Shown here in pieces: positions 21,764-36,215 of a stretch of 42,126 bases of DNA (positions are counted from its first letter, which is position 1; each line of letters begins with the position of its first letter). The translations under genes were made by a program, and so were the position numbers. Under the pieces are notes generated by a model. It did not search any database. It was not told where the DNA came from and worked only from the letters and a program-made list of their open reading frames with translations. The stretch is from positions 1 through 42,126 of the forward strand of contig JAGXLU010000015.1 in the NCBI GenBank assembly GCA_018334565.1, in the 5' to 3' direction. The stretch is from Halanaerobiales bacterium (GTDB lineage Bacteria; Bacillota; Halanaerobiia; Halanaerobiales; M55B127).

Positions 21764-22600
21764 TCAAGACCCTAATTCCTCTTTTTTTATATCAACTTCT
21801 TCAAATGTCAATAAACCATTTTTGAATGCTTTAACTACCATCTCTATTTGCGAATTAACTTCAAATATATTATATAATCTTTGTTTATGGTACTTAATAG
21901 TACTCCTACTTAAATGCAATTCTTCTGCTAATGAACTTTCTGTCAGACCATTGGCGATCATCTTTAATATATACAACTGTTTTTCAGATAATCCTTCTTT
22001 AAAATTAATCTTGTTATTATAACTTTGTCTATTATATAATTTAAGCTGAATATTACTTGTCAATAGATCGCTTAAACAAATAACTTCATTTTTAATAATA
22101 TTTTTATTAATAATATTGATATAACCCAAAATAGAACCATTATCTATTATAGGAAATGCAATACTATAATATGTATTTAAAGGTCTACAAAAATGGTGAC
22201 CCGGTAGAATAAATACTGGTTTTTTCATTTTTTCAGCCAAATATACTGCATTTGTACCCGAATATTTTTCATAAAAAGAAAATCCTTTTTTTATGCCTAG
22301 AGCATGTAACTTTAAATAAATATTAGCTGAAGCAGACATTACCTCTACTATAAATTGATTGTTTATTAGAAAAAAACAGTAACCTCCATTTAACTTTTGA
22401 TTAATTTTATTAACCTTTTCAAAAAAATAATTCCTAATTGCTTTACTAAAATATAAGTTTTTAATATCCTTACCGTTTACATGTTTATTAACTATAATAG
22501 AACGGGATTTGCCCGATTTTAAACATCTGGACCAAGAAAAAGCTACTTCCTTTTTTATTGACTTATAATCAAAATATTTTTTAGCTGTATCCAAACCCAT
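21764..22600 (-). CDS. LuxR-type regulator with AcoR-like GAF sensor
   Basis: The 278-residue protein begins with the AcoR-like pattern FSWSRCLKSG and a GAF-like sensor domain (about 40-190) that ends with KYSGTNAVYLA and IAFPIIDNGSILGYINI, features known from sigma-54 activators. Instead of an AAA domain it has a LuxR helix-turn-helix at about 207-265 (LSEKQLYILKMIANGLTESS, HLSRSTIKYHKQRLYNIF). It starts five bases after the HlyD-like gene, so it is the last gene of the peptide-export operon and probably its regulator. A small-molecule or peptide ligand for the GAF domain is inferred. Confidence 0.8.
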   Translation of the reverse strand: MGLDTAKKYFDYKSIKKEVAFSWSRCLKSGKSRSIIVNKHVNGKDIKNLYFSKAIRNYFFEKVNKINQKLNGGYCFFLINNQFIVEVMSASANIYLKLHALGIKKGFSFYEKYSGTNAVYLAEKMKKPVFILPGHHFCRPLNTYYSIAFPIIDNGSILGYINIINKNIIKNEVICLSDLLTSNIQLKLYNRQSYNNKINFKEGLSEKQLYILKMIANGLTESSLAEELHLSRSTIKYHKQRLYNIFEVNSQIEMVVKAFKNGLLTFEEVDIKKEELGS

Positions 22601-22605
22601 GCCCC

Positions 22606-23754
22606 CTAATTTATAAAATCCAATTTTTCTAATACATAATATATTATTGGCCTTTGCCCAACAATTATAGAAGCCTCGGTAATCATACCATTGACATAAT
22701 TAACTTGTTTTTTATTCGCTCCCTTATTAAGAAAGTTATTGATACTTGCTTCTGCTTTATATATATAGCTTTGTCCTCCAGTTTTAGTCACATCATAATT
22801 AATACTTATGATTTTACCTTTGGCTGTACCAAACTCTTTATATGGATAAGATGTGATACGATACCTTACTATATCACCTTTATTTATCCTTAAAATATCA
22901 TCATTATTTATTACAAGTTTTACAATATATTTTTCGTGAGAAATCGGAACAACTTTCATTACCAGGTTACCAGCAGGAATATAGTCTCCGATATTAAAAT
23001 GTTCTATAAACTGGATTCTGCCATCAATAGGGGACTGGATATTATATCGCTTTAATTTTTCATCAATATTTTTTTTGTCTATGATATTACTTGATATTTG
23101 ATCTTTATATTTTTCTATCCTATTTGCTATATCTATTATCGTTTCTTTTTTATAACTAGATAATTCATATTTCATATTAGTAAGTCCCATTTTTTCTTGA
23201 TTATACTGTACTTCAGAAATACTGATTCCTCTAAAATTTTTTAGCTTTTTAATCCTGGCTTCTTTTAATCGTATTTTTTCACGCAAAAATTGAATTTTTT
23301 CTTTAATAAATACAAATTCATTTTTTATAGAGCCAGTCATAAATTCACTGTTTGTTTCTTTGTTTTTTAAATAATCAACAATTATTTTTAAATCCTTTAT
23401 CTCATTATTATATTCAATATTTTTCTCAGTCAAATACTTTTTCCGTTTTTCATATACAGTATTTTCTATGGAAAACAAACAATCACCCTTGTAAACCTCT
23501 TTTTGATCTTTATTAACCATACTCTTTAAAATACCGGCTTGCATATTATATATCTTACTAATAGGATTTTTTTGACTAATTATACCTCTGGTTTCTATAA
23601 TTACATCAACTTTTCCATAAAATAACCAAATAAATGCAATAATCAAAACAAAAATTATAATTATTACCGTAGAATATATAAACAATATATCTTTTGTATT
23701 TCTTTTGTATTTTCTTTGACTTAAATCATCAAAATCTTGATAAGCAAATTTCAA
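22606..23754 (-). CDS. HlyD-family adaptor protein for peptide export
   Basis: The 382-residue protein has one N-terminal membrane helix (about 26-48), a short biotinyl-lipoyl-like strand region (IIETRGIIS), a long charged helical hairpin (about 105-225, coiled-coil rich) and a C-terminal barrel with YNIQSPIDGRIQFIEHFNIGDYIPAGNLVMKVVP, the hallmark of membrane-fusion proteins. It works with the C39 ABC exporter encoded 26 bp upstream, as in bacteriocin secretion sets. The start is TTG 23754, with AAAGGGA seven bases before it; no ATG is available. Confidence 0.9.
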   Translation of the reverse strand: MKFAYQDFDDLSQRKYKRNTKDILFIYSTVIIIIFVLIIAFIWLFYGKVDVIIETRGIISQKNPISKIYNMQAGILKSMVNKDQKEVYKGDCLFSIENTVYEKRKKYLTEKNIEYNNEIKDLKIIVDYLKNKETNSEFMTGSIKNEFVFIKEKIQFLREKIRLKEARIKKLKNFRGISISEVQYNQEKMGLTNMKYELSSYKKETIIDIANRIEKYKDQISSNIIDKKNIDEKLKRYNIQSPIDGRIQFIEHFNIGDYIPAGNLVMKVVPISHEKYIVKLVINNDDILRINKGDIVRYRITSYPYKEFGTAKGKIISINYDVTKTGGQSYIYKAEASINNFLNKGANKKQVNYVNGMITEASIIVGQRPIIYYVLEKLDFIN

Positions 23755-23780
23755 TTCTTATTCCCTTTCATATAACATCA

Positions 23781-25970
23781 TTAATATATCTGTTTATTCC
23801 ATAGATCATAATAATATCCCCGTTTATCAACTAAATCTTGATGTGAGCCATATTCCACAACTTTTCCTTTTCTTAAAAAAAATATTTTCTCACAGTTTTT
23901 AACCGCTTTTAATCTGTGAGAAATTATTATCACCGATTTATCAAAACTAATTTCATCAAGCATCTCATAAATCTTTTTTTCATTACTGAAATCTAAATTA
24001 TTGGTAGCCTCATCCAGTATTATTAGATCTGGATCTTTTAATAAAACTCTAGCAATAGCTAATCTCTGTTTCTCTCCTCCCGATAAATTATTACCGTGTT
24101 CCGTTAAAATAGTATCATATCTTTTCGGAAGTTGATTAATATAATTATGAATTTCTGCTTTTTCGGCCGCTCTTATTATTTCTTTAATACTGTAATCTTC
24201 ATTATTTAAACATATATTTTCTTTTATAGTTTTATTAAATATAAATATATCTTGTGGTACATATCCTATATTATTCCTCAAACTTTTTGTCTCTATATCT
24301 TCTAAATTGTTTCCATCAATAGTAATTTTACCTCTATTGATACTATAAAACTTCAGCAAAGATTTAATTAAGGTGGTTTTCCCAGATCCGCTGGCCCCTA
24401 CAATGGCGATTTTCTGTCCCTTCTTGATCTTAAGTGATATATTATTTAAGATCTTTTTTTTCCTATTATAAATAAAATCTACATTTTTAAATTCTATATC
24501 ACCCTGTATTTTATTTAACTTCATCAACTTTTTTTCGTACTCTTTTGTTTCTAAAACCATAATTTCTCTTAATCTATCTATTGCTACCAATGCTTCCTGG
24601 ATTTTAGGTTGTAATTTTATTAAATTTTGTAAAGGATTATAAAAATATACTAAAAGGGCATTGAAAGTTATCAACTGGCCCACTGTTAATTTACCTTGGA
24701 TGACTTGATATCCTCCCAACCACAATATGATCGTTTCTCCCAGTGATGCTAATAGATTATCTAACGAATTCTGTATATTTTTTAAAAAGCTGGCTTGAAA
24801 AATTTTTTCTATGAAATCAAGAAATTTATACTCATTATTTAAATAACTTTTTTCTTCATAATTAGATGCCTTTATAGTATTAATGCCATTGATAGTTTCA
24901 ACAAGACTGGACTGAAGTTTTGCCCCACATTCCATTTCTTGTTTTCTTACCCTTTTGTGTTTGTTGGCAAATAGAATTACTAATATAATATATACGGGTA
25001 ATAAAAAAGCAGCTATTTTAAATAAATATTTACTTTGAAGATAAAGAATAATGCCGGCCCCAATTATTAAGAGAGTATCAATCATTATTGATATGGCGGC
25101 ATTGGAAATAGCTTCTCTTATTTTGCTAGAATCCTGTATTCTTGAAATGATTTCACCGGTCTCTCTTTTCTCATAAAATGAAATGGGTAATTGAAGGATG
25201 TGTTCAATATAATCCATTATTAACCTAATATCTATTTGTTGGCTCAAATATATCGTCAGGTGGTTTCTAAAACCATCCATAACAATTTTTAAAAAGGCGA
25301 TAAGCATTACCCCTATTGATATTATATGCAGTGTCTTAATTAATCCATTTACTAAAATACTGTCAATTAAATATTTAAAATAAAAAGATCCCAATATGCC
25401 TAAAATTGTATATATGATGGAAGCTAAAAATATTTGAAATATTAAACTTTTATTTTCCCTTATAATATTTTTTATAAAGTTGAACTTTTTGGGTGTTTCT
25501 TTTTTATTATAAGCTAAGTTGGCCGGCTTAAGTAAAATTAAGATATTTGTCCACTTCTTTTCAAAAGCAGCCTTGCTTATTATCTTTAAACCATTATCAG
25601 GATCAAAAATTATTAAACGGCTGCCTTTGATTTTATAAATCACAATAAAGTGCAGCACATCATTTTTTACAACATGAGCAATTACCGGCAAATTTAATTT
25701 TTTTGTTAATATTGCCAGCTTTGCCTTAACTCCTTTTGCTTGAAATCCAATTTTTTCCGCAGCTTTTATTAGACCATATGCTGATGTGCCTTTTTGATCA
25801 GTACCAGCTGATTCTCGTATCCTACTAATAGGGTAATTTAACTTGTAAATATTAGCAACAGTAGCCAGACAAGCTGCCCCGCAATCAGTTTTGTCTCTTT
25901 GTTTTATTAGTTTATTAAAATTTTTTATTTTTATATATGTTAAATATATTTTTAAGAATAATTCTTGCAT
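23781..25970 (-). CDS. C39-peptidase-containing ABC exporter for double-glycine peptides
   Basis: The 729-residue exporter has three parts. An N-terminal C39 protease domain carries catalytic C30 (TDCGAACLA), H107 (LHFIVIY) and D123 (IFDPDNG). Six membrane helices follow (about 175-450). The ATPase domain has Walker A GASGSGKTT, signature LSGGEKQR and Walker B LIILDEATNNLD. Such proteins cut leaders after Gly-Gly and export the mature peptide. The three small genes directly upstream, two with Gly-Gly leaders, are its obvious substrates. The start ATG lies 14 bases after the stop of the nearest peptide gene and has only a weak ribosome binding site, so translational coupling is likely. Confidence 0.95.
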   Translation of the reverse strand: MQELFLKIYLTYIKIKNFNKLIKQRDKTDCGAACLATVANIYKLNYPISRIRESAGTDQKGTSAYGLIKAAEKIGFQAKGVKAKLAILTKKLNLPVIAHVVKNDVLHFIVIYKIKGSRLIIFDPDNGLKIISKAAFEKKWTNILILLKPANLAYNKKETPKKFNFIKNIIRENKSLIFQIFLASIIYTILGILGSFYFKYLIDSILVNGLIKTLHIISIGVMLIAFLKIVMDGFRNHLTIYLSQQIDIRLIMDYIEHILQLPISFYEKRETGEIISRIQDSSKIREAISNAAISIMIDTLLIIGAGIILYLQSKYLFKIAAFLLPVYIILVILFANKHKRVRKQEMECGAKLQSSLVETINGINTIKASNYEEKSYLNNEYKFLDFIEKIFQASFLKNIQNSLDNLLASLGETIILWLGGYQVIQGKLTVGQLITFNALLVYFYNPLQNLIKLQPKIQEALVAIDRLREIMVLETKEYEKKLMKLNKIQGDIEFKNVDFIYNRKKKILNNISLKIKKGQKIAIVGASGSGKTTLIKSLLKFYSINRGKITIDGNNLEDIETKSLRNNIGYVPQDIFIFNKTIKENICLNNEDYSIKEIIRAAEKAEIHNYINQLPKRYDTILTEHGNNLSGGEKQRLAIARVLLKDPDLIILDEATNNLDFSNEKKIYEMLDEISFDKSVIIISHRLKAVKNCEKIFFLRKGKVVEYGSHQDLVDKRGYYYDLWNKQIY

Positions 25971-25984
25971 TGTTTATCAATACT

Positions 25985-26116
25985 TTATTGTAACAAATAA
26001 TAGATTACTTGACCGATTATATATCCCAATAATACCCCTGCAGCAGTTGTAAAAAAAAGTCCTAAAACAAAATTATGACCAGTTATTGGCCCTTGTAATA
26101 AGGTAAATAATGACAT
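25985..26116 (-). CDS. Small hydrophobic peptide without double-glycine leader
   Basis: The 43-codon gene (MSLFTLLQGPITGHN then a hydrophobic helix) has AAGGAG before its ATG. Residues 16-41 form one membrane helix with GVLLG and GYIIG, two GxxxG-type motifs. It shares TTAA plus glycine-spaced helix features with the neighbouring leader peptides but has no Gly-Gly site. It may be a leaderless third peptide, an immunity protein or a small exporter subunit. It is placed between the leader peptides and the exporter. Recognised only by context. Confidence 0.7.
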   Translation of the reverse strand: MSLFTLLQGPITGHNFVLGLFFTTAAGVLLGYIIGQVIYYLLQ

Positions 26117-26161
26117 CTTTTCATTCTCCTTTTTATTCAAAATATTTTCCCCCTTTAAGTT

Positions 26162-26191
26162 AGGGATGCTCTAAAATATTCGAGCATCCCT
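26162..26191 (-). promoter_or_regulatory. Stem-loop between peptide genes
   Basis: Perfect 10-bp arms AGGGATGCTC and GAGCATCCCT flank a 10-nt loop. No U-run follows on the minus strand, so it is more likely an mRNA-stabilising or read-through-limiting hairpin between the leader-peptide genes and the exporter genes than a full terminator. Confidence 0.6.
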
Positions 26192-26196
26192 TCCTT

Positions 26197-26346
26197 TTAC
26201 CTGTGAGACGCTTTTTGGTAACCAACATATGCACCAAGAGCAATTCCACCCAATCCAGCAACAAGATATATAATAGCTGCTGTTGTACTACTTACTACAA
26301 ATCCACCTCTTACATCCATTAGTTCCTTTTGGGATAATTCTTTGAT
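26197..26346 (-). CDS. Double-glycine leader peptide with AUC as apparent start
   Basis: The frame reads a 15-residue leader IKELSQKELMDVRGG, which fits the class II bacteriocin leader rule (LS..EL..I.GG), and a 34-residue core starting FVVSSTTAA. The core helix has GIALG and GAYVG (GxxxG) and a basic tail YQKASHR. There is no ATG, GTG or TTG before the leader: a TGA in the same frame lies 12 codons before the internal ATG. A GAGGTGA site sits four bases before ATC 26346, which is correct spacing for initiation there. It may use AUC, be silenced by an ATG-to-ATC mutation, or contain a sequencing error. The internal ATG would leave a useless 6-residue leader. Confidence 0.7.
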   Translation of the reverse strand: MKELSQKELMDVRGGFVVSSTTAAIIYLVAGLGGIALGAYVGYQKASHR

Positions 26347-26363
26347 ATGTTCACCTCATTTCT

Positions 26364-26537
26364 TTAATGGGAATAATAATAGTAGGCTGCTCCAAGAGCC
26401 ACTCCAATTGCTACTCCCGCTGATGCTATCCCAAAAGCACCCAAGACTAAGGTGGCAGCTGAAACAGGACCTCCTCCTTTTATTTCCATTAATTCTTTGT
26501 CACATAAAATTTGACAATTATCAGCCATTAATTCCAT
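26364..26537 (-). CDS. Double-glycine leader peptide, bacteriocin-like
   Basis: The 57-codon gene has AAGGAGG six bases before ATG. A 22-residue leader ends CDKELMEIKGG. The core of about 35 residues starts GPVSAATLVLG, continues with a small-residue helix containing GVAIG and GVALG (GxxxG motifs) and ends AAYYYYSH. This fits one half of a class IIb two-peptide bacteriocin, the next peptide gene being the likely partner: the two share G(I/V)ALGA near the C-terminus and a final SH. Core and leader contain no modification-typical Ser/Thr/Cys cluster, and no modifying enzyme is nearby, so the product is probably unmodified. Confidence 0.85.
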   Translation of the reverse strand: MELMADNCQILCDKELMEIKGGGPVSAATLVLGAFGIASAGVAIGVALGAAYYYYSH

Positions 26538-26637: not shown

Positions 26638-27135
26638 TAATCTACTTTACCCACTTTTCATTTGCCAAGCTTTTTATACAATCCCCCTTTATGCTTTTTT
26701 AAAAAGTAGGTAGATTCACATTGCTAATGATGCCACAGGTTTGAACAACTCTAGCAACTTCCCTCTCTAGAGGAATAATCGTTGGCTGTTCGTAGAGCAT
26801 GTGGTGGGTACAATATTCTTAATGCTTAATGTCCTGTATATCATAGTTAATATCAAACAAAGTCATTTAGACTCCTTGCTCTTCACTATTTTTTATACCA
26901 ACCAAAGCTTATCAACCAGGCATTTTAGTCTCCAAAAAGCCTCATCATTATTTTTTTAAGATGAAGTGGCTGATTTTTCCCGGGATCCACTATTTACAAT
27001 ACTATCATATATTACCATTATTTGCCACTATACAAACAGGTAAAATCTCCTTGTTAAATGAATATGTTTGTCGCCTTATTTGGAATATATTTTGTTCTTA
27101 ATCAAATTAATGTTGAAAAATAAAGTTTTATGCAT
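26638..27135 (-). other. Gene-poor stretch with broken short frames
   Basis: No intact gene is visible. On the minus strand several short protein-like stretches occur with stops or frame changes between them: one with LPVCIVANNGNI (about 27110-27015), continuing in the next frame as YDSIVNSGSREKSATSS, and one starting AAGGAG-TCTAA-ATG at 26863 (MTLFDINYDIQDIKH, stop, then MLYEQPTIIPLERE and VVQTCGIISNVNLPTF to about 26698). I could not assign them. They may be remnants of one or more genes lost beside the peptide locus. Confidence 0.4.
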
Positions 27136-32726: not shown

Positions 32727-35700
32727 ATGTCAGAAGAAAAATCTATAAATTTAACACAAAATGCTCTTAAAGTATTAGAAGCTAGATACTTAAAAAGGAA
32801 CAAAGAAGGGGACTTAATTGAGGATCCAGAAGGCATGTTTGATCGAGTTGCCACAAATATTGCCGAAGCTAACAAAGCCTATGGGGAAGATGTAGAAAAA
32901 GATAAAGAAGATTTCTATAACTTGATGACGAATTTAGATTTTTTACCTAATTCACCAACCTTAATGAACGCAGATAATGATTTACAACAACTAAGTGCCT
33001 GCTTTGTTCTTCCTGTGGAAGACAGTATGGAAGGAATTTTTGATTCTCTAAAAAACTCCGCCCTGATACATAAAAGTGGAGGCGGTACCGGCTTTAGTTT
33101 TTCTAAATTAAGGCCAAAAAATGATATAGTAAAAACTACTGGTGGTGTAGCTTCTGGGCCACTTTCTTTCATGAAGATATTCGACAAAGCCACTGATATT
33201 GTAAAACAGGGTGGAAAAAGAAGAGGTGCCAACATGGGTATCTTAAGAATTGATCACCCTGACATCATGGCCTTTATTACAGCTAAAGAAAATGAAGATA
33301 TGTTAAATAACTTCAATATTTCTGTATCGGTTACCGATGAATTTATGAAGGCAGTCGAGAAAGATGAGTTTTATGAACTGGTTAACCCCCATAATAATAA
33401 AGTTACTGCCAAATTAAATGCTAGAGAAGTATTTGATAAGATCGTATATATGGCTCATAAAAACGGAGAACCAGGTATTATCTTTTTAGATGAAATCAAC
33501 CGTCACAATTCTACACCAGGTGTTGGTGAAATAGAAAGCACCAATCCGTGTGTTACAGGTGATACTTTAGTCAGTACTAAAGATGGTTTAATGCGTATAG
33601 ACACATTATATGAGGAATATAAGGAAAAAGGTTTTAAAGTTATAACTGATAAACGGATCCCCACTATTCTACCAAAAGTAGTAAACAGTAGTAATCCAGT
33701 ATATTCTACTAATGTAAATAAAAAAGGAACTCAATTGCAGGAAGCTGTTAAAATATATAATAACGGCAAAAAAGATGTTTATAGATTAACTACTAAAAAC
33801 GGTTATGAAATCAAGGCTACTGCTGATCATAAATTTCTTACAGATAAAGGCTGGAAAGAACTACAGGATTTAAAGAGAGAAAACAAAGTTTTAATACAGT
33901 CTGATGAAGGTAACTTTTCTACTTCATCTAATTTAACCTTTGAAGTAAACAATACTGTTAAAGAAAAAAATGGGAAAAGATATAAATCTAACTTTCCACA
34001 AGAATGGTCGCAAGAATTAGGACAAGTGCTGGGATACCTCCTTGGAGAAGGTGGGCTCAGAAAAGAAAACAAAAACTGCCGCGTTGGTTTTACATTTAGT
34101 AAAAATGATCAGCAATTATTAAAACACTTCAAAGAAATACTTGACCAGATGTACGGCAGAGATATTAAACCTATCAAAAAGAAAAATGATACTTTCCATC
34201 TCTCCTATCACAGTAAGTTTTTTGTTGATTTTTTCAAAAAACTGGGAGTAAAAGCTACACAACCAAGTTCTAAAGAAGTTCCTTCTTCTGTCTTCACTGC
34301 TAATAAGGAAGCTGTAACTGGCTTTTTACAGGGACTATTTACAGCAGATGGAACTGTATCTAATGATAAAAATAAAGGAAATTACTATGTCCGTCTAACT
34401 TCTAAATCATTGACACTATTAAAACAGGTACAGATGCTTTTAATCAATCTAGGTATTAAGTCCAGAATTTATAATAGAACAAGAAAAACAACCGATAATA
34501 AATTCACATATGCTAATGTTAACGGCGAAAAAAACAGCTACAGGACTGATGTTATCCTGTATGAACTGCAGATATCTTCCGGTTCTCTTTATACTTTTGC
34601 TGAAAAAATAGGTTTCCTACTTGAACGAAAGGAAAAAGAATTAACAGATATTATAAGCAACCACAATCTGCATCAGCAAAAAATGTTTGATAAAATTAAA
34701 AATATTGAATATGCAGGAAAAGAAACTGTATATGATCTTACAGAACCAGCTACTCATTCTTTTATCGGCAATGGCTTTGTTATCCATAACTGCGGTGAAC
34801 AGCCTTTATTACCTTTTGAAGCATGTAATTTAGGTTCTATTAACCTTGCCCACATGACTAAAAAAGTTAATGGTGATTATCGTATTGACTACAACAAGCT
34901 CGAAAATACCGTAAGAAAAACAGTGAAGTTTTTAGACAATGTAATTGATATGAATAAACATCCCTTAGAAAAAATTAAAGAAATGGTTCAAGGTAATAGA
35001 AAGATAGGTTTAGGAGTGATGGGTTGGAGCGATCTTCTAATACGCCTCAGAATCCCATATAATAGCGAAGAAGCGGTTAAATTGGGAGAAGACATTATGG
35101 CCTTCATAGAAGAAGTGTCACATGATGAATCCTCTAATAGAGCAAATAAGAGAGGCTCCTTCCCTAACATTGAAGATAGTGTTTATGATAAACCGATGAG
35201 AAACGCAACTACTACTACGATTGCTCCAACTGGAACAATTAGTATTATTGCAGGGGTAAGCAGTGGTATCGAACCTTTATTTGCAATCAACTATGAACGG
35301 CACATCTTAGATGATGTTTTAATAGAAACCCATCCTATCTTTGAAGAAATAGCCAAAGAAAGAGGCTTTTATTCAGAAGAATTAATGAAAAAAGTAGCCA
35401 AAAACAATTCTATACAACACATGGATGAAATACCGGAAGATGTAAAGTTAATCTTTGTAACCGCCCATGATATCGAGCCAGAATGGCATATTAAGATGCA
35501 GGCTGCTTTTCAAAAATCAGTCGATAATGCAGTAAGTAAAACTGTCAACTTTAAAAACTCAGCTACTGTCGATGAAGTAAAAAACGTATATGAAATGGCT
35601 TATGAATTAAACTGTAAAGGCGTCACTATCTATAGAGATGGAAGTAGAAGCAAACAGGTTCTTTCAACCTCCAGTGAAGAAGAACAATCTAAACATGATA

Positions 35701-36215
35701 GAAAAACTAAGAGGCCTCGTCCTAAAATAACTTACGGTACTACCGAAAAGACTAAAATTGGTTGCGGCAAACTCTATATCACTATTAATTCAGATCTAAA
35801 AGGTATCAACGAGGTATTTACCACTACAGGTAAAGGCGGCGGCTGTCACGCCCAATCAGAAGCAATTTCTAGACTTGCCTCCCTGGCTTTAAGAAGTGGT
35901 GTTGCCATCGAGGAAGTTGTCGATCAACTGCGGGGTATCAGATGTGAAGCAGCCATGATCAGAAAAGACGTACACAATTTATCCTGTCCAGATGCAATCG
36001 GCCGGGCCTTAGAAAAATATGATGAAGAAGAGATTCATAAAAAGTTCAATATGGATATTGAAGCAGAAGATACAGAGGAAGAGGGCACTCCTCAAATAAA
36101 TCAAAAAGTGGATTCCTATACAAACGGCTCTGTTTGTCCTGAATGTGGACATGAGTTAGAACATGAAGGCGGTTGTTCAGTCTGTAGAAACTGCGGTTGG
36201 TCACACTGCGGATAA
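32727..36215 (+). CDS. nrdJ: Adenosylcobalamin-dependent ribonucleotide reductase NrdJ, intein-containing precursor
   Basis: The 1162-residue precursor holds a class II ribonucleotide reductase (748 residues after splicing) that makes deoxynucleotides with B12 and without oxygen. Extein motifs are NSPTLMNA, LSACFVLPVEDS with the first redox Cys, KSGGGTGFSFSKLRP, ESTNP joined to CGEQPLLPFEACNLGSINL with the thiyl-radical Cys, and ATTTIAPTGTISIIAGVSSG. A vitamin B12-dependent NrdJ-type C-terminal region follows with TGKGGGCHAQSEAISRLASL and a zinc ribbon CPECGHE...CSVCRNCGW. Residues 275-688 are an intein. GAGGTGA precedes the ATG. It has its own promoter and ends at a terminator. Confidence 0.95.
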   Translation: MSEEKSINLTQNALKVLEARYLKRNKEGDLIEDPEGMFDRVATNIAEANKAYGEDVEKDKEDFYNLMTNLDFLPNSPTLMNADNDLQQLSACFVLPVEDSMEGIFDSLKNSALIHKSGGGTGFSFSKLRPKNDIVKTTGGVASGPLSFMKIFDKATDIVKQGGKRRGANMGILRIDHPDIMAFITAKENEDMLNNFNISVSVTDEFMKAVEKDEFYELVNPHNNKVTAKLNAREVFDKIVYMAHKNGEPGIIFLDEINRHNSTPGVGEIESTNPCVTGDTLVSTKDGLMRIDTLYEEYKEKGFKVITDKRIPTILPKVVNSSNPVYSTNVNKKGTQLQEAVKIYNNGKKDVYRLTTKNGYEIKATADHKFLTDKGWKELQDLKRENKVLIQSDEGNFSTSSNLTFEVNNTVKEKNGKRYKSNFPQEWSQELGQVLGYLLGEGGLRKENKNCRVGFTFSKNDQQLLKHFKEILDQMYGRDIKPIKKKNDTFHLSYHSKFFVDFFKKLGVKATQPSSKEVPSSVFTANKEAVTGFLQGLFTADGTVSNDKNKGNYYVRLTSKSLTLLKQVQMLLINLGIKSRIYNRTRKTTDNKFTYANVNGEKNSYRTDVILYELQISSGSLYTFAEKIGFLLERKEKELTDIISNHNLHQQKMFDKIKNIEYAGKETVYDLTEPATHSFIGNGFVIHNCGEQPLLPFEACNLGSINLAHMTKKVNGDYRIDYNKLENTVRKTVKFLDNVIDMNKHPLEKIKEMVQGNRKIGLGVMGWSDLLIRLRIPYNSEEAVKLGEDIMAFIEEVSHDESSNRANKRGSFPNIEDSVYDKPMRNATTTTIAPTGTISIIAGVSSGIEPLFAINYERHILDDVLIETHPIFEEIAKERGFYSEELMKKVAKNNSIQHMDEIPEDVKLIFVTAHDIEPEWHIKMQAAFQKSVDNAVSKTVNFKNSATVDEVKNVYEMAYELNCKGVTIYRDGSRSKQVLSTSSEEEQSKHDRKTKRPRPKITYGTTEKTKIGCGKLYITINSDLKGINEVFTTTGKGGGCHAQSEAISRLASLALRSGVAIEEVVDQLRGIRCEAAMIRKDVHNLSCPDAIGRALEKYDEEEIHKKFNMDIEAEDTEEEGTPQINQKVDSYTNGSVCPECGHELEHEGGCSVCRNCGWSHCG
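33549..34790 (+). mobile_element. Intein with LAGLIDADG homing endonuclease, in NrdJ
   Basis: This in-frame 414-residue element starts at Cys1 (CVTGDTLVST), has the block B TxxH motif (T91-H94 in ATADH) and two endonuclease motifs LGYLLGEGG (161-169) and LQGLFTADG (260-268). It ends NGFVIHN, with the splice-active His-Asn before Cys+1 of the C-extein. All splicing residues and one acidic residue in each endonuclease motif are present, so both splicing and homing could be active. Cys+1 is also the catalytic radical cysteine of the reductase, a conserved site known to host inteins in other ribonucleotide reductases. Confidence 0.95.

Follow-up and report, generated by a model that had tools for sequence, protein, structure and literature searches.

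A conserved locus for a probable two-peptide bacteriocin in Halanaerobiales, with a toxin-like membrane peptide and a non-canonical start codon

A six-gene locus in the genome of an uncultured salt-lake bacterium of the order Halanaerobiales contains the genes of two double-glycine precursors, P1 and P2, a small membrane peptide, P3, a C39-peptidase ABC exporter, an HlyD-type adaptor and a GAF-LuxR regulator. We read it as the locus of a new, genus-restricted class IIb bacteriocin with a type I export route. There is good reason to take the locus for that of a bacteriocin. As far as sequence can tell, the system is of a known kind with two unusual features, a P3 that resembles P1 and a non-canonical start of P2. 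The gene order, the protein families, the catalytic residues, the purifying selection, the P1-P3 homology and the conserved AUU/AUC site are read from the DNA. The functions proposed for these parts are discussed below with the evidence that bears on each.

Anatomy and range of the locus

The window, a stretch of 42,126 nucleotides that was analyzed as a whole, is contig JAGXLU010000015.1 (assembly GCA_018334565.1) and belongs to a 2.16-Mb draft genome, G000. The six genes span positions 21764 - 26537, all on the minus strand, in agreement with a preliminary description of the window, and are flanked by a gene for a TatD-type hydrolase and a butyrate-kinase-like (buk-like) gene. No gene for a modification enzyme is present between these two neighbors, as the same description had stated. 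The same-genus relatives used for comparison are metagenome-assembled Halanaerobiales (uncultured Halanaerobiales SRR6193124_bin.36 and Tobar isolates). The gene order and both neighbors are the same in G001 and G002, and the order is retained up to the contig limits in G003 and G004. P1 and P3 were compared across four genomes (G000 to G003), which form two close pairs.

Purifying selection acts on the cores of all three peptides, with dN/dS of about 0.05 - 0.15. Between the window and G001 or G002 the ratio is about 0.11 - 0.14 for P1, 0.06 for P2 and 0.04 - 0.07 for P3. P1 is kept in G001, G002 and G003, its core having a dN of 0.20 and a dS of about 1.5 - 1.8; the corresponding values for both P2 and P3 are about 0.1 and 1.6 - 2.1. 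Each core contains a GxxxGxxxG motif that is invariant among the orthologs and arises in only 4 - 7% of shuffled cores; GxxxG-type motifs had been noted earlier in all three peptides. The locus is real and conserved, and probably functional.

P1 (26364 - 26537, minus strand) is a double-glycine precursor of 57 residues, with a predicted mature peptide of 35 residues, GPVSAATLVLGAFGIASAGVAIGVALGAAYYYYSH, and a monoisotopic mass of 3356.7. It passes the Pfam model PF10439 (Bacteriocin_IIc) marginally, by 0.1 bit (27.2 bits against a gathering threshold of 27.1), and scores 13.6 bits with TIGR03949, below the cut-off of 21.5. P2 (26197 - 26346, minus strand), read from an ATC codon, has the leader (I/M)KELSQKELMDVRGG and a mature part of 34 residues, FVVSSTTAAIIYLVAGLGGIALGAYVGYQKASHR, with a monoisotopic mass of 3452.9. 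It passes the NCBIfam model TIGR03949 (class IIb, lactobin A/cerein 7B) with 24.1 bits against the same cut-off of 21.5, and falls short of the PF10439 threshold of 27.1 with 20.9 bits. The two adjacent, unmodified double-glycine precursors with GxxxG motifs have the sequence characteristics of class IIb. The locus had been called uncharacterized and its product, by inference, a new two- or three-peptide bacteriocin or signal. Two peptides and C39 export are borne out by PF10439, TIGR03949, TIGR01193 and the conserved anatomy, whereas novelty of kind is not, because the peptides partly match a described family.

The two cores had also been paired by a shared G(I/V)ALGA and a terminal SH. Their similarity is at chance level (643 of 3000 shuffles), as is that between the cores of P2 and P3, and the relatives lack the terminal SH: there P1 ends in TH and P2 in AAK or ARK. 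Readthrough from P1 into P2 was considered and dismissed, as the two are in frame in G002 only and not in the window. A possible fourth peptide upstream (open reading frame 26699 - 26800) is non-coding, since it carries a frameshift and a stop in G003, and the same stretch matches the HEARO RNA.

P1 and P3 were found in this genus only, P3 having been sought in all six frames of 59 genomes, and neither had a match among the plasmids or viral contigs searched. With this distribution and the synteny across the genus, an origin of the locus from a mobile element was rejected. Weak relatives of P2 occur in G054 and G044. Matches to the P3 model in other members of the phylum were short stretches within frames of about 680 residues, with chance-level E-values, and were discarded. 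Queries for Abp118 alpha and a second bacteriocin gave no plasmid matches, and no conclusion is drawn from this.

The C39-peptidase ABC exporter (23781 - 25970, minus strand; 729 residues) scores 670 bits with TIGR01193 against a cut-off of 524, and its peptidase domain matches PF03412 at 1e-40. The residues C30, H107 and D123 are intact, as described before, and so is Q24; all four are invariant in six exporters. It is the sole C39 exporter found in the genome. The HlyD-type membrane-fusion adaptor (22606 - 23754, minus strand; 382 residues) matches PF13437 at 3.5e-12. By its profile scores, which are both below cut-off, the adaptor is nearer to the type I HlyD family (TIGR01843, 132 bits, cut-off 209) than to the bacteriocin accessory family (TIGR01000, 55 bits). 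Halanaerobiales have an outer membrane with LPS (PMC5007114) and the genome encodes three TolC-like OEP proteins on another contig, so that export across two membranes is likely. One further locus, in G057 (L045, 9157 - 15106), has a C39 exporter and an HlyD gene followed in the same direction by two genes read as TolC-like by their sequence; this arrangement would support outer-membrane export for such loci.

The regulator (21764 - 22600, minus strand) has a GerE match at 2.6e-11. Its GAF domain is weak in Pfam (E-value of 0.088) and is backed by the DhaR-type match of the N-terminus (5.6e-14). The AlphaFold model of this protein has a mean pLDDT of 43 and was set aside. In G044, G057, G054 and G013, homologs of the regulator are neighbors of C39 exporters and of double-glycine peptides, and several others are solitary (G041 and G022, for example). 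The GAF-LuxR protein thus seems to accompany such loci regularly in this class. This linkage of the regulator gene to peptide loci in several Halanaerobiia would also suit P1 and P2 being secreted pheromones that the regulator reads, directly or indirectly, with no killing involved. Such a role is improbable: the locus has neither a sensor kinase nor a peptide importer, the DhaR-like N-terminus resembles small-molecule GAF sensors, and both P1 and P2 are long and very hydrophobic, with helix-packing motifs. In G044, a region at about 1.960 - 1.990 Mb (L041 and L042) contains about eight different double-glycine peptides, three GAF-LuxR genes, broken copies of a C39 exporter and small membrane proteins that are likely to confer immunity. 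It is an apparent expansion hotspot.

Start codon of P2 and other expression signals

The initiation site of P2 (26344 - 26357, minus strand) consists of GAGG at 26354 - 26357, a 7-nucleotide spacer and ATC at 26344 - 26346. The codon is ATC in the window and in G003 and ATT in G001 and G002, that is, near-cognate in all four genomes. The spacing to the Shine-Dalgarno sequence is exactly 7 nucleotides in each, and this sequence is AGGAGG in G001 and G002. From the preceding in-frame stop to the leader, none of the four has an ATG, GTG or TTG that would retain the leader. Canonical starts alone give only a product beginning with MDVRGG. This in-frame ATG was rejected as the start because its position, its codon (ATG, TTG or CTG) and its Shine-Dalgarno sequence are all unconserved, and its use would delete the conserved leader positions -7 to -12. 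The codons that follow ATC or ATT encode a textbook double-glycine leader (KELSQKELMDVRGG, KELNQNELLQINGG and KNLNQKELLQTNGG) with dN lower than dS. A single base change would create an ATG, yet this change is not fixed in any of the four genomes. We are highly confident, from this conservation, that translation of P2 begins at ATC/ATT. The earlier account recognized both Gly-Gly leader genes but missed this start.

The usage is exceptional among such precursors. About 20 other intact double-glycine leaders in the loci examined in related genomes have canonical starts, and one further leader that lacks a start belongs to a broken gene next to a transposase-like open reading frame. In infC, the standard example of a gene with this type of start, the codon is ATC or ATT and follows GGAGGTG in the five genomes of the order that were read, with ATC in the window genome and ATT in its close relative. 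The P2 site has the same sequence characteristics as infC: a conserved near-cognate start, a strong Shine-Dalgarno sequence and proper spacing. Translation of P2 is therefore expected to be weak and sensitive to IF3, and IF3 control of P2 is, by this analogy, a strong prediction. In Staphylococcus aureus, cvfC1 starts at AUU and ccpN at AUA behind extended Shine-Dalgarno sequences; these conserved starts give about 10 - 30% of the AUG output (PMC13009471). The sigR gene of Streptomyces has a GTC start and is repressed by IF3 (PMC5472188).

The gaps between the genes had been described as short. The one between P2 and P3 is about 56 - 110 nucleotides long, depending on the start of P3, and contains a strong hairpin (26162 - 26191, minus strand; -21.4 kcal/mol, z of -5.4). 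The hairpin is conserved in the three comparable genomes; its counterparts in G001 and G002 (-22.7 and -22.3 kcal/mol) are followed by a T-rich tail. It is a probable partial terminator or stabilizer of the mRNA end, and could raise the peptide mRNA above that of the exporter.

Upstream of P1, a promoter-like element (26976 - 27030, minus strand), TAGTGGYAAATAATG...TATAAT-like...TCCCGGGAAA, is common to all four genomes. In the window species and in G003 only, a degenerate HEARO/omega-RNA (26710 - 26974) is inserted between this element and P1 on the operon strand. It matches RF02033 over its full length (1 - 211) with 30.4 bits and an E-value of 1.6e-4, below the gathering threshold of 83. 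The element is absent from the loci of G001 and G002 and is present in a single copy in the genome. The other such match, at L038 502 - 764 (minus strand), is likewise degenerate, full-length and placed between the promoter-like element and P1, and has 35 bits against the same threshold of 83. G000 also contains remnants of IscB-bearing elements, namely IscB-type RRXRR matches on four contigs, three with internal stops and one a short fragment. Elsewhere in the window, at 32727 - 36215 on the plus strand, a ribonucleotide reductase gene of 1162 codons has an in-frame intein with a LAGLIDADG domain (PF14890 and PF14528).

P3 and its kinship to P1

P3 (25985 - 26140, minus strand) is a leaderless, single-span membrane peptide of 51 residues, or 43 if the ATG at 26116 is used, and is a candidate immunity peptide. 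It matches no family among the Pfam and NCBIfam models. The mature core of P1, GPVSAATLVLGAFGIASAGVAIGVALGAAYYYYSH, and the end of P3, GPITGHNFVLGLFFTTAAGVLLGYIIGQVIYYLLQ, are both 35 residues long. Their gap-free alignment begins at the residue that directly follows Gly-Gly in P1, and 13 of 35 residues are identical. The ungapped local score is 70, while shuffles have a mean of 22 and a standard deviation of 4.3 (z of about 13) and none of 5000 reaches it. A harsher shuffle, which keeps hydrophobic, Gly/Pro and polar positions fixed, reaches the score in 4 of 5000 trials. The highest score among 783 real hydrophobic segments from this and related genomes is 39. When a P3 profile was run against all six frames of the 59 genomes, the four top matches other than P3 itself were the adjacent P1 cores of G001, G000, G002 and G003, and the profile-profile comparison of P3 with P1 gives a probability of 93%. 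By these measures P3 is homologous to the mature P1 core, a relation that the earlier pairing of P1 with P2 had overlooked.

The two proteins differ at their N-termini. In place of a Gly-Gly leader P3 has a short, charged, conserved segment, MNKKENEKM(S/T)L(F/Y)TLL(Q/K), with a dN/dS of about 0.05 - 0.08 between the species pairs that include the window; for this reason P3 should remain in the inner membrane with its N-terminus inside. The core is preceded by LLQ or LLK and begins with GP, and there is no Gly-Gly or Gly-Ala before it; therefore no processing by the C39 exporter is expected.

That no recognized immunity gene is present, as stated in the preliminary description, is literally true, but P3 is better explained as an immunity candidate than as a third peptide. 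It is a candidate because some immunity factor is required with a two-peptide bacteriocin and the locus offers no other, and because its place, size and predicted topology are like those of CbnZ, the proven immunity protein against carnobacteriocin XY, which is 42 residues long with one transmembrane domain, N-terminus inside, and whose mechanism is unknown (PMC6957408). P3 has this position, size and topology without homology to an immunity protein. On these grounds, an immunity function is the reading toward which the evidence leans, if modestly.

How P3 might protect the producer is a matter of less confidence. Immunity by mimicry of P1 is a tentative proposal. The bacteriocin may instead be an ordinary one of class IIb in which P3 shields the receptor or blocks the pore by the usual route, its likeness to P1 being only a trace of duplication. 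The order and size class of the genes are the same as in cbnXYZ (PMC6957408), and the immunity proteins of class IIb vary widely and are without exception embedded in the membrane (PMC8538875), both of which fit this reading. The sites common to P3 and P1 (GP, VLG.F, AGV and G...G...G), however, are those kept in every ortholog, an indication that the resemblance as such is being preserved, and we regard a mere trace as unlikely.

The homology to mature P1 and the GxxxGxxxG motif of P3 are also compatible with a third active, leaderless component of a three-peptide bacteriocin, released by another route; leaderless two-peptide bacteriocins do exist (PMC7332713). The lack of a C39-cleavable site, the charged and conserved N-terminal extension and the position of P3 with the exporter behind the hairpin make this improbable, if slightly less so than a role of P3 as a small membrane component of the exporter, either a subunit or a docking guide. 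The latter would account for the 14 nucleotides that separate P3 from the exporter gene and for the hairpin between P3 and P1-P2. Yet other Halanaerobiia have related C39 exporters that do without a homolog of P3, and P3 resembles P1 and no known part of a transporter.

Proposed mechanism and comparison with known systems

The explanation that we consider best as a whole combines a two-peptide bacteriocin, immunity through a P3 mimic, and low, IF3-sensitive production of P2; from the sequence features we infer killing, immunity, the export route, IF3 control and the target of the regulator. P1 and P2 would be made with double-glycine leaders, which the C39 domain of the exporter would cut after Gly-Gly. 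The exporter and HlyD, probably with a TolC-type protein encoded elsewhere, would release the mature peptides of 35 and 34 residues. In sensitive relatives these would enter the membrane and form a leak, with their GxxxGxxxG faces as the packing surfaces. P3, which reproduces the mature P1 helix but has no leader to be cleaved, would stay unexported, anchored with its N-terminus inside in the producer's inner membrane. There it may stall pore assembly by replacing P1, either in the complex of the P1 and P2 helices or at a receptor that is shared. The AUC/AUU start behind a strong Shine-Dalgarno sequence would keep P2 low and IF3-sensitive and set the P1:P2 ratio. The probable target of the GAF-LuxR protein, as an activator, is the conserved promoter upstream.

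Taken as a whole, this explanation stands in even balance. A weak start of P2 is odd if the bacteriocin works best at 1:1, P3, with its likeness to P1, could also be an active third peptide or a subunit of the exporter, and the hairpin parts P3 from P1-P2, P3 being predicted to be expressed with the exporter genes. The specific conjunction of a non-exported toxin paralog that blocks the pore with a partner dose set by the conserved IF3-sensitive AUU/AUC start is doubtful, more so than mimicry taken singly.

How class IIb immunity proteins work has been described as unknown (PMC8538875, PMC6957408). A candidate immunity peptide that visibly copies the toxin helix makes this question testable with peptides of 35 residues. 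With the ATC/ATT start, a bacteriocin precursor joins the few genes on record that have conserved non-canonical starts. Gene calling restricted to ATG, GTG and TTG loses most of such a leader or misses the gene, and partners of other 'single-peptide' bacteriocins may therefore have been overlooked. If the present reading is true, the locus is an instance of class IIb in a Firmicute with two membranes.

The members of TIGR03949 and PF10439 share with P1 and P2 the leader consensus, the Gly-Gly site and Gly-rich cores with GxxxG. The locus differs from them in its genus-restricted sequences, a host order with an LPS outer membrane (PMC5007114), the type I style HlyD protein and the conserved AUC/AUU start of P2. 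In the near-cognate codon, the strong Shine-Dalgarno sequence and conservation between species this start is like those of infC, cvfC1, ccpN and sigR; unlike these genes, P2 encodes a bacteriocin precursor, and no such case was found in the literature searched. The exporter is like PCAT1 and ComA (PDB codes 4ry2 and 8hf4) in domain order and catalytic residues over its entire length, but it is paired with an HlyD protein and the genome also encodes TolC-like OEP proteins.

Carnobacteriocin XY, whose cbnXYZ sequences were taken from a Carnobacterium plasmid (locus L098), has two double-glycine peptides followed by the hydrophobic CbnZ of 42 residues, the place that P3 holds here. P2 weakly resembles CbnY (15 of 2000 shuffles). 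The source of CbnXY, however, is a lactic acid bacterium and thus a monoderm, and the start of cbnY is canonical. Furthermore, CbnZ is not clearly similar to CbnX (47 of 2000 shuffles, z of 2.7) or to CbnY (1295 of 2000, z of -0.4), whereas the kinship of P3 with P1 is unmistakable. The likeness of P3 to P1 is therefore special to this system, and mimicry would be no general rule of class IIb. A parallel is the self-immunity of enterocin DD14 (PMC7332713), where a bacteriocin-like sequence inside the producer adds to immunity. In that case it is the active leaderless peptides that take part, whereas here a separate, non-exported paralog is proposed to do so.
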